Assembly: GCF_025602895.1 (NCBI RefSeq)
Contig: NW_026516231.1
Location: 248,001 to 312,000 of the forward strand
Length of the DNA: 64,000 nt
From: Polychytrium aggregatum
Lineage: Eukaryota; Chytridiomycota; Chytridiomycetes; Polychytriales
Direction of reading: 5' to 3'
Shown: positions 53,991 to 60,913 of the stretch, one piece after another
Position numbering within the stretch: the stretch's first letter is position 1
Layout of the letters: every line of letters starts with the position of its first letter
Position numbers and translations under genes: made by a program
The notes under the pieces: generated by a model
Databases searched by the model: none
What the model was told of the DNA's origin: nothing
Seen by the model: the letters and a program-made list of their open reading frames with translations, nothing else

Positions 53991-54993
53991 CTCGGCATGG
54001 AGCTGCTCAATGTCATGTGCTTCTTTCTCCAGGTTGTGTACTCGATACTCTCCATTCCACTCCGTTTCGGTTTGTTTCTTCTAATTCAAATTTCTATCTC
54101 ACACTTCCAATATCTCACTTCATCCGATCAGATTGTGTGATATTCGTACTGAAGGACGGCTCTGGTGCTGCGGTGTGAGACGAGCCTGCTTTGTGGTTGC
54201 CGAACCCGAAGCGAGTCCAAATCCCTCATAATCTATGACAGTCCACACACCGCACTTGGCCATGGACTCAATCGAGAGCAGACACCAGTTGTCGTGGACA
54301 TCCTGGGGCACTGCCTTCTCCCGCATTCTCGCTGGTGGATCTCCGTGAGTGATGATGGTACATTGCAAGGAGCAGTCCACCCAGACCCCAACGAGATAAC
54401 TGTGGTGTCCTCGATGCACACCCCCATCGCCACCATGATCGAGTATCCGTGGAAGCAACGCATGAGAAATGACAGAGGATCGAAAGCACGCACCACACTC
54501 CTGCATTGCACGTCAATGCCAGTCGAGACCATGCTCCCGAATCCAACCGCCACGTCCAACCGATCATTGTGAGGAATTGCTGACGCGATTGTCCTTCTTT
54601 GCTCCCAATGAGCTCTTTGTGCTGTCCAATCCGGGCTGCCATCCAGTATCACGTGGCTATGCGCAGTACAAACAACGCGCTCTCGTGCGCGCTTGTTTCA
54701 GAGTCGCGCTCCCAAATCGAGCAGTGCCATTTGCCTGTGATACAGCCGCTTGCCATGTCGGGTGTCGATAAATCCTGGCCGCTGTTCCATCACCATCGCC
54801 CTCCAGGTTTCTTTCCACGATGCCCGTGCTCGAAACTGCCGCTGCCGTCGCTGCTATCGCTGCACTCGCTCAGCATTCCAGTGGCTCCTTCCAAGGCCTC
54901 GCCCAAGCTGCCAAGACCCTCTTCACCGCTGTCCAGTAGGCGGATGAGAATCTAAAGTCGTGGGAATTCCTGGTCAATCCTTCCTGCGATATT
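53991..54993. other. Intergenic region and broken 5' extension of the pseudokinase gene
   Basis: Mostly non-coding. At 54500-54560 a plus-strand segment (MLPNPTATSN) weakly resembles the MLPKPTK segment of the Fanzor-like copies. From 54820 an ATG opens a frame that is in register with the pseudokinase gene but is interrupted by a TAG at 54937-54939; see the gene entry and finding. Confidence 0.45.
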
Positions 54994-56817
54994 TTGCTCA
55001 CTCTCTCCCGGTCTCGGACAAATGCGCCTGGGTTCTCCGAGCAAGCGGACAAGCTCACTACCTTCTTCAACACTATCCGTGACTATTACACCAACGAGGT
55101 CCAGTCCCTCCACAAGGTCCTGCGAGTCTTCAAATCGGACAAGATCCGCCGCCGAATCGAGCAGTACTGTCGACAACTCGATTGCCTCTGTCAGAATGTC
55201 GCCCTGGAACTGACCATCGACAGCAACAATCGTCTCAATGACGCAGACCTCCGCCGAACCCTGCAACAAGACGAGAACCAGAACAAGACTCAGATCAATG
55301 AACTGGCTTCTCTGATGCAGCAGAACCCCGCCATGGCTTTGCAGTGGCTCAACATCCCAGTGAATGGGCAGCAAGACCAGCAGCGGCACCAGGGAGCCGC
55401 GGCGCTTGAGGAGCTCCGGGATGACAGCTCAACCAGTGCCGATTGGAAGAACAAGGCCATCATCCCCCTTCTCGAGACGCTGAAAAGAACATCTCCTGCC
55501 GCCGAGTCCGCCCAACCTGAAAGCTGGCGCATTTTCCCAGCCTCCATCATCAACCGCTCCGCTGAACCCATCTTTTCTGGTGGCTTTGGTGATGTTTACA
55601 CTGCCACGTTGAAAAGCGCCTGCGTTGCCGTGAAGCAATTCCGACGCAGCTTCCTGGATAATGAGATTGCCGAGTTCCGCAAAGAGATTGGGATCTGGCA
55701 TCAACTGAGCCACAAGCACATCCTCACACTCTGCGGCGCCTGCGACACTGCGGAGAAGCCCTTCATTGTCTCCCCATTCATGAAAAACGGCACCCTCAAA
55801 TCGCACCTGGGTGGGTCCTCCCATCGCTCCCTCAACGAGAAGCTTTGCTTGATGAGCGAGGCGGCTTCAGGCATGGCGTATCTCCACAGCAAGAGCATCA
55901 TCCACGCGAACCTGAAATCCTCCAACGTCCTAATTGGACCAAGCTTTGAAGCGCTGATTTGTGACTTTGGCATGTCCCGCATCAAAGAAATCTCGTCATC
56001 GTCGACCTCTCGCACACCTGCCACACCCATGGACGGAACGCTGATGTACAAGGCCCCGGAGATGTTCCAGGCTACCAATCTGAAGCGTGCCTCCCCTGCC
56101 ATCGACGTCTACGCCTTTGCCATTCTCTGCTGTGAGGCACTCAAGAATTGTAGCGCCATATTCTTGGCCACACAGAAAATTGAACGTGATGTCCCCAATG
56201 GCACGCGGCCCCGCCGGTTCGATGGAGTGCCTGACCCACTGTGGGCACTGATCACCGAATGCTGGGACCAAGATCCAACCAAACGCCCAGCCTTTGAAGT
56301 GGTATCCTCTCGGGTGAGCGCCATCAGATATGAAGCAGCCGCAGGAGATCCGGAAGCGCAGTTCACCATTGGAAAATCGGTTTACTTTGACGCGAAGAGC
56401 TACCCCGATGCCTTCGAGTGGTACACCAAAGCCGCCAATCAAGGGCATGCGCAAGCCCAGTACATCCTCTCCGAATGGTACCACTATGGCTTCTTTGTTA
56501 CCCAGGACGATGCCAAAGCCGCAGAGTGGTGCATCAAGGCCGCGAAGCAGGGACATGCAAAAGCCCAGTACAAAGCCGGCGAGTACTGTGAGTATAGCGT
56601 TGGTGTCACCAAAGACGATGCCAAAGCCGCCGAGTGGTACATCATGGCCGCGGAGCAGAAATATGCAAAAGCTCAGTACAAAGCCGGCGAATGTTACAAA
56701 AAAAGCAAAGGTGTTATGAAGAATATCGAGACTGCTCGATACTGGTACAGAATGGCTGCTGACCAGGGCTATGTGTCCGCCCAGTCCGCACTCGATCAGC
56801 TCCCTGACAACCAATGA
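54994..56817 (+). CDS. TKL-type pseudokinase with MLKL-like helical N-terminus and Sel1 repeats
   Basis: The uninterrupted frame runs from Met 54994 to 56817 (607 residues). Residues 1-170 are helical (FFNTIRDYYTNEVQSLHKVL, RRRIEQYCRQLDCLCQNVAL), like the four-helix N-termini of MLKL and plant/fungal relatives. The kinase domain (~185-450) has a Gly loop (FSGGFGDVY), the VAIK lysine (VAVKQF), the alpha-C Glu region (FRKEIGIWHQLSH) and DFG (CDFGMSRI). The catalytic loop reads IHANLKSSN, so the HRD Arg and the catalytic Asp are replaced. It is probably a pseudokinase. Four Sel1 repeats follow (PDAFEWYTKAANQGHAQAQY and similar). In frame 5' of this start, from ATG 54820, lie 39 more codons with a matching hydrophobic helix, but a TAG at 54937 separates them. 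The gene may thus be 5'-truncated or broken. Confidence 0.8.
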   Translation: MLTLSRSRTNAPGFSEQADKLTTFFNTIRDYYTNEVQSLHKVLRVFKSDKIRRRIEQYCRQLDCLCQNVALELTIDSNNRLNDADLRRTLQQDENQNKTQINELASLMQQNPAMALQWLNIPVNGQQDQQRHQGAAALEELRDDSSTSADWKNKAIIPLLETLKRTSPAAESAQPESWRIFPASIINRSAEPIFSGGFGDVYTATLKSACVAVKQFRRSFLDNEIAEFRKEIGIWHQLSHKHILTLCGACDTAEKPFIVSPFMKNGTLKSHLGGSSHRSLNEKLCLMSEAASGMAYLHSKSIIHANLKSSNVLIGPSFEALICDFGMSRIKEISSSSTSRTPATPMDGTLMYKAPEMFQATNLKRASPAIDVYAFAILCCEALKNCSAIFLATQKIERDVPNGTRPRRFDGVPDPLWALITECWDQDPTKRPAFEVVSSRVSAIRYEAAAGDPEAQFTIGKSVYFDAKSYPDAFEWYTKAANQGHAQAQYILSEWYHYGFFVTQDDAKAAEWCIKAAKQGHAKAQYKAGEYCEYSVGVTKDDAKAAEWYIMAAEQKYAKAQYKAGECYKKSKGVMKNIETARYWYRMAADQGYVSAQSALDQLPDNQ

Positions 56818-57386: not shown

Positions 57387-60300
57387 ATGAGTGCTCCCGC
57401 GACCCACATGCCCTTCCGCCCTGTGCTCGTGCTGTGGTCCATCTCACTCATCTTGGGGATCGCAGGTAGGCGACTTTCTTTGCTCCTCCGAGATGCCATC
57501 AATGATCGCCCCTGATACTGATCCCACCGTCCGGCCTCAGGCGCATGGGAGCAGATTGACCCCGCGCTCGTTGGGGTCGGGGCCACCTTTCCAGCGTCGC
57601 TATACTCGACGCTTGCCCAAGTATACTCTGAGTACGACAGCGTGTGGAGCTACACATTCACCGGTACGAGCTCTGGTGCAGGCCGAACCGCCCTCATCTC
57701 GGGTGCACCCAACTTGACTTGGGCCGCCTCGGACACCATTCCGCCAAACACTTCGTTCATTGGCCCTGGAGGCACCCTTGGACAGCTGGTTCCCATTCCA
57801 TCAGTTATCGGGTGAGTCCTGAGCTTCCGGGCGTAGCCAGGGATGCAGTCAGTGACGGGCCAGGGATGCAGCCCGAGGTGGAGTCAGAGATGCAGTCCGA
57901 CGGAGCCGACGCGCATTGGTCTCATTTTTTCCTTCCTTTCCCTCGGTTACAGTGGCATTGCCGTGGTCTACCACCTCAACATAACCAACCTTGTTCTTAC
58001 TCGGCAGAATGTTGCCGACATCTTCACGGGAAAAATCGCTGCCTGGAACGACTCGCGGCTCGTCCAGAATAACCCTGCGCTGGCGAGTATCAGCGCGCCG
58101 ATCCAGACAATCGTGCGGAGCGGCTCGTCTGGAACGACTTCCAACTTCCTCTGCGCCCTGGGGTCATTCGATCCAACCCTCAACCTCCCCTCCATGCCTA
58201 CTTATCCCCTTTCCTCATGGGGATCGGCCAGCCAGCCTTTCTTTGGAACCACAAACACCATGGTCTCCAATACCATCCAAGTGAGCCCGTACACGATCGG
58301 ATACGTGGACTATTCCGATGCATCCAGCACGCTGGCGTCGCTAGGATCTAGCCAGAGCATGTACTCGATTGCTCGCATTGTGAATCGGAACGGAGATGTC
58401 GTTATGCCTTCAATTGGGGCATTTCAGGTAAAGATCCTGCTGCTCATGCTCTCCAGCCCAAGCTCCAATGATGATCCCGGCCAGCCCCGATCCCAATCGA
58501 GTGCATGACTGTTGACGAGCCTGTTGCTCCATCAGACCGCCCTTTCAATACCGCCGGCCCAGAATCTGTCGTCGGTGCCGCACTTCTCGGACGACGTTGC
58601 AAGCATTGTGCAATCGCTCTATATCGACTCGAGCGTTCCGGGAGCATACCCGCTGTTGGCGCCAACATATGTGTTTCTGCGCCAGGATTCGGATATTTAT
58701 GGCGTCGCCGAGCCAAAGATTCGAGCGACGCTTCGGTTCATATTCTGGATGATATTCGGAGGTACTGAGCTGGTAAGCAGGGCAGTGTTGCGGCCGTGGT
58801 GCCGTTCGCCAGGCTCTGCAACACGGATCAGTGTCCGTGACGATCCACACCCTATTCCACGCACTTGATACACCATGCAGCTCAGTAACGCACTCGTCGA
58901 CAGCTGCCCTCGCCACGACCGACGGCCTCGCCCTCCACCGAAGCCATCTTCACGCAAAATCAGTTTGTTCACTTCCAAGACCGCACCCTGCTGGCTTTTG
59001 CTTACGACGCCCTCAAACTCGTTACCCATGGTGGGGTCGCTCTCTTTGATCCCCGCTCGCCCTGCAACCCAGCCTTTGATGCAAATGGCAGCTACGTCAG
59101 CGCCAACTCGTGCAAGCACGGGTACTGTGTCGTTGACGGGCCCTTCCAGGATGCCTCAGTCGCTCAGTGTATCTGCGACGTGGGCTTCTACAACAACGAG
59201 CACACTGACTGCTCCGAGCCTGCCGAGCCCTTCATGGTGCTCTTCTCGGGGTATCATGCATTCAACTGCGGAGTCATCGCCCTGCTTTTGGCCGCGGGGC
59301 TATGTAACAGCGCCATACTAGTCCTCCTGATTGTGTGGAAGGACAAGCCCGACATCCGAGCCATTTCGCCAAACTGCTGCTACATCATCGTGGTTGGATG
59401 CCGTAAGAATCGAATCGATGGCTGATTTGATGTCCTTCGCACCGAGCAGGAACGCGTCTAAAGAGCACATCCGTTGACATAGTGTGTTGCCGGGTCCCTG
59501 GAATATCATGATTTCCCATCGAGCTGACAAGGCCTGTGCACTTCCGTCAAGTCCTTGGTCAGGTCGGCGCACTCTTCTATTCAGCCGAGCCGAGCAGCAT
59601 GGTATGCACAGCCCGCATCTTCTTCCCCGTTGCTTCTTTCTCCTCCGTCTTCAGGCAAGTCCAAAGGCAGTCATAGTCCTTGCATTGCGGGCCGGATTGA
59701 GCCACTGGGAACCCCCAGATGCTCGAGTCGATCCAGGGCCACTGCTCCGCTGCTGACACTGCCTCTGATCATCGCACTGCTCCCGCCACTCAGCATGCTG
59801 CTAATGAAGTCTCTGCGCATATACATGATATTCGAGAACAAGCGAATGCGTATCTTCAAGACCCCCGACTGGAAACTCATGCTTGGGACAGCGTTCGTCG
59901 TTGCTATCGAGTTGGTCATCTGCACCTTCTGGGTTGTCTTTGAGCAGCCAAAGGTTCAGGTGGAAGGCAGTCTCTATATTTTGACTTGCAGCACTCCTTC
60001 GGGATCGACGAATGTACCCGAGGTGCTCCTCTACGTGCTCAACGGAGGCATTATGGCAGGATGCGTCTTTGCGGCCTACCTCACCAAGAATGCCCATCGG
60101 CGCTTCCAGGAATCCAAGGCCATTGGGCTCTGCAGCTATCTGGTGCTTATCACCCTTCTATTGTGTTTGCCCATCGCCTATGCGCTCACAAACGATCCCG
60201 AGTCCTATGCGCTCTATGCTATCGGGCGAGCTACTCTGTCGTGCGTGGTGATTGTGGTCTCGTTGCTGGTGCCGCTGGTGCTCTTCAGCGGTCGCCTCAT

Positions 60301-60913
60301 CCGCACCCTCTTCAACCAGCAGAGCGAGCTCGAGCCTCGCTCCCAGGTCAGTTCTCCGAAAGCAACCAGCGAATCTGACCAGGCGAGTCAGGGCATGGCT
60401 GCCACAAACCTCTTTGCCTTTGGCTACGACTGCAGTCTCCGAGGCTTCAAGTTCGGTGGTGCCTGGGTGTCATCCACGGTGCTGGTCTTCACGAGTCTAG
60501 ATCTGATCGAGTTCCGGGAGCCGAGGATTGATGGATGCGTCCAAGCCAGCTTCCGCTTCTCGTCTTGCCAATGCAGACCCTGCGAGACGACCAAGGATCC
60601 TGATTCAGAGCAGGGGGCGACGAGGAGCATCTGGCTTCGACACAACAAGACTCTCTTCACACTCGAGTTTGTCTCCAAGAGAAGTGCAGAGCTGTTCCTC
60701 GAGAATTATGCCAGTGCCAGATCCCGACCAAGCGTCGTTTTGGGCCGACTGCAGCACGATTCAATGATGGCGTCGGACGATGTGGCGGACATGGCCACAC
60801 ACAAGCCCGAGGAGACGATCCTGGCGAGATTCAGAACCGACAACCGGCCCATGCCGGGAGCCAGCCCCACCTCCGGTCTAGCCGGCATCATCGGTTCGGC
60901 CCTTGACTCCTAA
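57387..60913 (+). CDS. Class C-type 7TM receptor with PstS-like phosphate-binding ectodomain
   Basis: Seven exons close exactly: 57387-57465, 57541-57811, 57953-58427, 58536-58772, 58904-59402, 59552-59654 and 59737-60913 (946 residues; intron 6 is GC-AG). A signal peptide (residues 1-26) is followed by a PstS-type domain (~32-340): GVGATFPASLYSTLAQVYSE, GTSSGAGRTAL, WAASDTIPP, GGIAVVYHLN, ADIFTGKIAAWND, RSGSSGTTSNFLCA and AYPLLAPTYVFL. This is the motif order of the phosphate-ABC-transporter binding protein. An EGF-like Cys segment (CKHGYCVVD, CICDVGFYN) leads to the membrane core (~470-740; GVIALLLAAGLCNSAILVLL, PLIIALLPPLSMLLMKSLRI, SYLVLITLLLCLPIAYAL). A ~200-residue tail has PH-like strands (STVLVFTSLDLIEF, KTLFTLEFVSKRSAELFLEN). 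Inferred role: extracellular phosphate, or a similar oxyanion, sensed and passed to G proteins. Confidence 0.82.

Follow-up and report, generated by a model that had tools for sequence, protein, structure and literature searches.

A PstS-type binding domain on a class C seven-helix core: a candidate phosphate receptor family in the chytrid Polychytrium aggregatum

Can a eukaryotic receptor of class C sense phosphate through a binding domain of the bacterial PstS type? The question is raised by a gene at positions 57387–60913 (+) of the window, a 64,000-nucleotide stretch of Polychytrium aggregatum DNA (assembly GCF_025602895.1, contig NW_026516231.1, positions 248,001–312,000). We consider it fairly probable that its product is a class C G-protein-coupled receptor in which a PstS-type (type II) phosphate-binding Venus-flytrap replaces the ANF-type domain, and that this receptor senses phosphate. 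The binding site is well supported by sequence, and phosphate is the inferred ligand.

The gene can be rebuilt exactly as a preliminary description of the locus had laid it out, with seven exons joined in perfect phase, no internal stops and a product of 927 residues. Exon 1 (57387..57465, +; in-frame ATG, GT donor) encodes a hydrophobic N-terminus at about residues 10–28, the predicted signal peptide of that description, which hydropathy supports. The N-terminal, middle and C-terminal parts of the PstS-type domain are encoded by exon 2 (57541..57811, +; motifs GVGATFP, TSSG and AASD), exon 3 (57953..58427, +; phosphate-loop motif VRSGSSGTT) and exon 4 (58536..58772, +), respectively. Exon 5 (58904..59402, +) contributes the linker, the EGF-like stalk, the first transmembrane helix (TM1) and the start of TM2, exon 6 (59552..59654, +) the stretch from TM2 to TM3, and exon 7 (59794..60913, +, stop included) the end of TM3 to TM7 and the cytoplasmic tail. 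Introns follow the GT-AG rule except intron 6 (59655–59793, +), a GC-AG intron with the donor gcaagt that the preliminary description left unmentioned. Relatives with a matching intron have a GT donor there; the exception is L019 on contig C16, a near-copy of the window locus (99.8% over 6.2 kb, same protein) that is probably the other haplotype. GC donors also occur at other introns in some relatives.

Whether the two halves of this protein belong together can be judged from the rest of the genome (64.7 Mb, 418 contigs), in which domain matches were counted exon by exon, so that all counts are lower bounds. It contains at least 58 matches to 7tm_3 and at least 28 to PBP_like_2, and 28/28 PBP_like_2 matches are followed on their own strand, 424–1866 bases further 3', by a 7tm_3 match, an arrangement with a chance of about 0.002 for each. 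In addition, a paralogue on contig C365 (L017) carries both domains in one uninterrupted frame of 1089 codons. Because of this single-frame paralogue and the complete pairing, the PBP_like_2 and 7tm_3 parts are, as the genomic arrangement indicates, one gene. Of the 24 fetched family loci, near-copies counted, 16 have exons of 475/237/499/103 bases; in four more one exon is 3 bases longer, and four have other structures, the 475-base exon 3 being present in 17/24 and the 103-base exon 6 in 22/24. The exon models took the window protein or the C365 protein as template, and their exact borders lean on these templates. We regard it as barely conceivable that a gene for a secreted PstS-like protein (exons 1–4) and a neighboring gene for an orphan seven-helix receptor (exons 5–7) have been misread as one: the paralogue, the 28/28 pairing and the exon pattern of 16/24 loci lead us to reject this reading and that of mis-splicing. 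L017 lacks introns, while the other relatives are mostly spliced; it is possibly a retrocopy or the ancestral form.

Clustering at 95% identity sorts the window protein and the 24 loci, together 25 of the 28 PBP loci, into 12 types, and residues were counted on one representative per type. The 11 other types are 31–63% identical to the window protein. Selection has been purifying in all four regions of the gene, the binding domain, the stalk, the core and the tail: nonsynonymous differences per site (pN) lie below synonymous ones (pS) in each of them in 7/7 comparisons (the window gene against 7 of the 11 other types), at synonymous divergences near or past saturation. We take the family to consist of real genes that selection has maintained.

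The PstS-type binding domain spans residues 33–352 (57558..58766, +, two introns inside). Profile searches bear out the ectodomain proposed earlier: Pfam PBP_like_2 matches residues 33–327 (E 5.3e-16), and the NCBIfam PstS model TIGR00975 matches residues 38–352 (E 1.4e-32). PBP_like_2 and 7tm_3 are the only Pfam domains listed for the window protein, each above its curated cut-off. Among structures, the top PDB matches of the domain are E. coli PstS entries (chain 1qui, E 1.9e-14), and the chains matched to E 1e-5 are without exception phosphate-binding proteins or phosphate-transporter subunits. As judged from these matches, PstS is the specific best match among binding proteins, and the domain is a type II binding protein and not of the ANF type, as the preliminary description had held. 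Neither an ANF-type flytrap nor the nine-cysteine domain, both marks of mGluR and CaSR, was listed by Pfam at E up to 1 over the whole window protein. We also considered whether exon 5 encodes a last PstS helix (about residues 371–402), which looks right by eye. This candidate was dropped because a profile of six PstS C-termini failed to separate 12 real segments from 240 shuffles (best 4.4 vs 3.8 bits among the matches listed).

Phosphate contacts in E. coli PstS (b3728, the reference for the alignment) we take to be T10, F11, S38, D56, R135, S139, G140 and T141. Over the aligned region only 70/278 residues (25%) are identical, yet 8/8 contacts are kept in the window protein (hypergeometric 1.2e-5): T42 and F43 (57585..57590, +) correspond to T10 and F11, S71 (57672..57674, +) to S38, D91 (57732..57734, +) to D56, and R172, S176, G177 and T178, within R172–T178 (58116..58136, +), to R135, S139, G140 and T141. 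If Ser is accepted for Thr, the site is kept in 8 of the 12 types, six of them with all eight contacts unchanged plus L017 and L026, which differ at T10 only (Ser). The same Ser is found in 3 of 6 other bacterial and phage PstS proteins, 5/6 of which keep all eight contacts by this rule. The window domain is like bacterial PstS in binding-domain family and in all eight contacts; it differs in that bacterial PstS is a soluble importer subunit with Asp at position 137, whereas the window domain has Gly there and is fused to a receptor core.

Several observations weigh against a phosphate-sensing role. The TIGR00975 score of 113 bits lies below the equivalog cut-off of 205, and the window domain is, as this score places it, a distant PstS relative and no equivalog. 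Position D137 of PstS, occupied by G174 in the window protein, is Gly in 12/12 family types and Asp in all seven bacterial and phage PstS proteins compared, and phosphate specificity or affinity may differ with this exchange. The 1qui chain, the top PDB match, itself has Gly at this position; crystallographic studies of D137 mutants (1qui and its kin) reportedly found that phosphate binding persists. One type, L040, has His in place of R135, and three others, L023, L027 and L033, have lost the site, keeping 2, 4 and 4 of the eight contacts, respectively. With three of 12 types lacking the site and one carrying His for R135, a commitment to phosphate does not extend to the whole family.

These features could also be accommodated by the same receptor with another natural ligand, be it a different oxyanion, a small phosphorylated compound or a phosphonate, for which the site would have been retuned by the exchange of Asp137 for Gly. 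The Gly common to all types, the His of L040 and the variation in pockets between family types would fit such an account, but the retention of eight contacts in 8/12 types (Ser accepted for Thr), as in 5/6 other bacterial and phage PstS proteins, speaks against it, and we consider a different ligand unlikely.

The losses in L023, L027 and L033 are concerted. The binding-domain trees unite these types in one clade (support 100/99), with one change of state. Sites changed in all three comprise 4 of the 8 contacts (T42, F43, R172 and T178) vs 6 of 156 non-contact positions that the five sister types conserve, an enrichment with Fisher p 0.00045 (0.0056, 0.043 and 0.02 for single types); two of the six non-contact positions, residues 69 and 70, adjoin contact S71. 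Despite this concerted loss, the seven-transmembrane (7TM) core and the tail stay conserved in the three types and their near copies. With the pocket rebuilt, the receptors of this clade probably recognize another ligand or serve as partners that bind none. GABA-B2 is a precedent for the latter, being the non-binding, G-protein-coupling partner of GABA-B1. By analogy, intact-pocket members could bind phosphate while the altered-pocket clade supplies non-binding, G-protein-coupling partners, an arrangement that would agree with the concentration of changes at contacts, the single clade and the conserved 7TM core and tail. A new ligand explains these facts equally well, however, and the 7TM tree, in which none of the nine inner branches is well supported (mark 95/80 in treekit; L040 and L038 long), leaves L033 apart from L023 and L027; we therefore rate such a division of labor as rather improbable. 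The tree does pair L020 with L022 and L023 with L027, in agreement with the binding-domain tree; given its poor resolution, this agreement between the two domains supports a single fusion only in part. Two copies of an altered-pocket relative, L035 and L036 (contigs C113 and C383), share, under the fitted model, an in-frame stop in the EGF-like stalk, which would mark either a pseudogene or a model error.

Looking across the family, we tentatively propose a dedicated set of eukaryotic cell-surface phosphate receptors: class C receptors would have adopted the flytrap of PstS and retained the phosphate site in most lineages, and in one clade the concerted changes at T42, F43, R172 and T178 would then have remodelled the pocket, producing receptors for new ligands or non-binding partners.

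The remainder of the window protein points to a receptor. Between the binding domain and the membrane lies an EGF-like stalk with six cysteines, C408–C457 (59063..59212, +), all of which are present in 11/12 types; the exception is L026, whose model is doubtful there. Pfam EGF, scanned against four stalks, gave a match over the cut-off in L017 (E 4.1e-7) and matches under it in the window copy (E 0.01) and in the other two, both weak and of EGF type. The EGF-like linker of the preliminary description is weak in the window copy.

The class C seven-helix core covers residues 464–735 (59231..60334, +, two introns inside). Its assignment, made earlier from the letters, held up in the profile search: 7tm_3 matches residues 477–718 with E 4.3e-38 and 131.8 bits, above the cut-off of 33.5. 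The best match of the core is mGluR2 (2.9e-13), followed by other mGluRs, CaSR and GABA-B. Class C hallmarks are a cysteine pair linking TM3 and extracellular loop 2 (ECL2) and the K3.50/E6.35 switch. In the alignment with mGluR2, K560 (59807..59809, +; Lys in 12/12 types) and E661 (60110..60112, +; Glu in 12/12 types) occupy what we take to be the mGluR positions K3.50 and E6.35, and the TM3 and ECL2 cysteines are likewise kept in 12/12 types. As sequence homology and hydropathy suggest, the protein has the large N-terminal Venus-flytrap and the predicted signal peptide of class C receptors. It shares with mGluR2 and CaSR the 7TM core, the TM3–ECL2 cysteines, K3.50 and E6.35, but these receptors combine an ANF-type (type I) flytrap with a nine-cysteine domain, whereas the window protein combines a PstS-type flytrap with a six-cysteine EGF-like stalk. 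The earlier suggestion that the fusion arose separately from GABA-B and mGluR receptors fits the different class of binding protein; the 7TM core, on the other hand, is homologous to that of mGluR.

The tail of about 200 residues reported earlier is present and contains a conserved block, residues 763–870 (60416..60739, +). Its mean conservation over the 12 types, 0.60, equals that of the 7TM core (0.60), although L040 diverges there, and 13 columns are invariant among the eight types aligned (L040 left out). PH_29 matches one of eight tails at E 0.019, but the unrelated DUF6226 matches one of eight at E 0.018, and EVH1 chains match only at E 1 and above (both searches covering 8 of the 12 types); a PH-like nature of the block is at most hinted at.

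A receptor role has to be weighed against transport, in which the PstS part would capture phosphate and the seven helices would pass it. We know of no 7tm_3 transporter. The core of the window protein is that of a class C receptor by sequence, with the switch residues kept, and the genome contains no match to BPD_transp_1, the permease domain of ATP-binding cassette (ABC) importers, at E 0.001 (controls 14/14 positive), so that the PstC/PstA permease expected alongside a PstS was not found by this search. In favor of transport, PBP_like_2-7tm3 fusions have been named phosphate transporters (PMC4815078). Taken together, we hold transport to be highly improbable. Bacterial contamination and an importer subunit are ruled out by the spliced exons and the absence of permease matches. 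In favor of a receptor, the genome has 80 exon-level G-alpha matches; together with matches to chitin synthase, these fit a fungal genome.

To look for the origin of the binding domain, the window and L017 domains were aligned and scanned against contig collections, an approach that reaches close relatives only: no bacterial donor was confirmed among 143 stretches in the genome_contigs scan, and none among 52 in the viral_contigs scan. Identity of the L017 domain is at most 28.4% to plasmid PstS among 15 of 63 records listed and at most 27.2% to phage PstS among 10 of 44 records listed. The receptor domains form one side of a 100/100 branch against seven bacterial and phage PstS proteins, which are too few to name a source.

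Other binding proteins also occur in this genome. Five Bmp matches (two places on C359, and C104, C210 and C334) each have a 7tm_3 match about 0.9 kb to their 3' side; as their arrangement indicates, these loci encode class C receptors of another kind, reported also for Dictyostelium. Exon-level matches elsewhere comprise two to ANF and two to SBP_bac_1, none of them paired with 7tm_3. Just 5' of the receptor gene in the window, a single-exon frame (54940–56817, +) encodes a tyrosine-kinase-like domain (PK_Tyr_Ser-Thr, 1.9e-45) followed by Sel1 repeats (3.8e-29).

Under the phosphate-receptor reading, extracellular inorganic phosphate would enter the cleft and be held by T42, F43, S71, D91, R172, S176, G177 and T178, and the two lobes of the flytrap would close on it. 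The motion would pass to the seven helices through the six-cysteine EGF-like stalk, in place of the nine-cysteine domain of mGluR and CaSR. With the K560–E661 lock released, the helices would then activate a G-alpha protein of the cell, while the conserved tail domain may modulate or anchor the receptor.

The architecture as such, PBP_like_2 N-terminal to 7tm_3, is already in print and is not new; the window protein shares it with receptors of Spizellomyces and Plasmodiophora. Krishnan 2012 (PMC3251606) lists the Spizellomyces punctatus Glutamate-family receptor SPPG_06488 with PBP_like_2 and notes further type II domains among the class C receptors of fungi. Compared by description, SPPG_06488 is likewise a chytrid Glutamate-family 7TM protein with an N-terminal PBP_like_2, but it is a single gene in a domain listing, and the available text mentions neither PstS, a phosphate site, an expansion nor a tail domain. 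The 2016 genome paper on Plasmodiophora brassicae (PMC4815078) reports PBP_like_2-7tm3 fusions as single coding regions supported by the authors' transcriptome. They are alike, again by description, in the domain pair and in phosphate as the suggested solute, and differ in belonging to another protist and in being read as transporters unique to that organism. The preliminary description's statement that no receptor of this design has been characterised holds, in the literature searched, for function; it is limited to function because both papers print the architecture. Overall, its observation is confirmed and its interpretation partly supported.

Related designs are known. Gut-fungus class C receptors carry type II binding ectodomains, with EGF-like modules in a few (Seppala 2016, PMC5168858); they resemble the window protein as class C cores with type II ectodomains in early-diverging fungi, but their ectodomains are of the sugar-uptake type or the pectin-lyase fold, not PstS. 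Dictyostelium Bmp-type receptors (PMC3251606) also place a non-ANF binding protein on a 7tm_3 core, although one of another clan (CL0144 vs CL0177). For fungi, a 2025 survey arrives at 918 Glutamate-class receptors, with an enrichment in Blastocladiomycota and Chytridiomycota. The terms 'PBP' and 'periplasmic' were not found in the accessible portions of a 2025 choanoflagellate GPCR paper (PMC12716839). Within the available parts of the prior accounts of these receptors, no discussion of phosphate-site residues or of an altered-pocket clade was found. What is new here is the expanded family, its intact phosphate site as judged from alignment, and the clade with a changed pocket.

How phosphate levels are detected is described as unknown even in mammals (PMC10104895). 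CaSR is inhibited by phosphate, and mutation of R62 abolishes this inhibition, which makes it one documented case of phosphate detection at the receptor level (PMC6795806). With a receptor built on PstS, whose binding chemistry is known, it becomes testable whether a eukaryote directly senses phosphate outside the cell. The family also makes plain that one class C flytrap can be swapped for another, and it offers intact and altered pockets side by side as a natural series.

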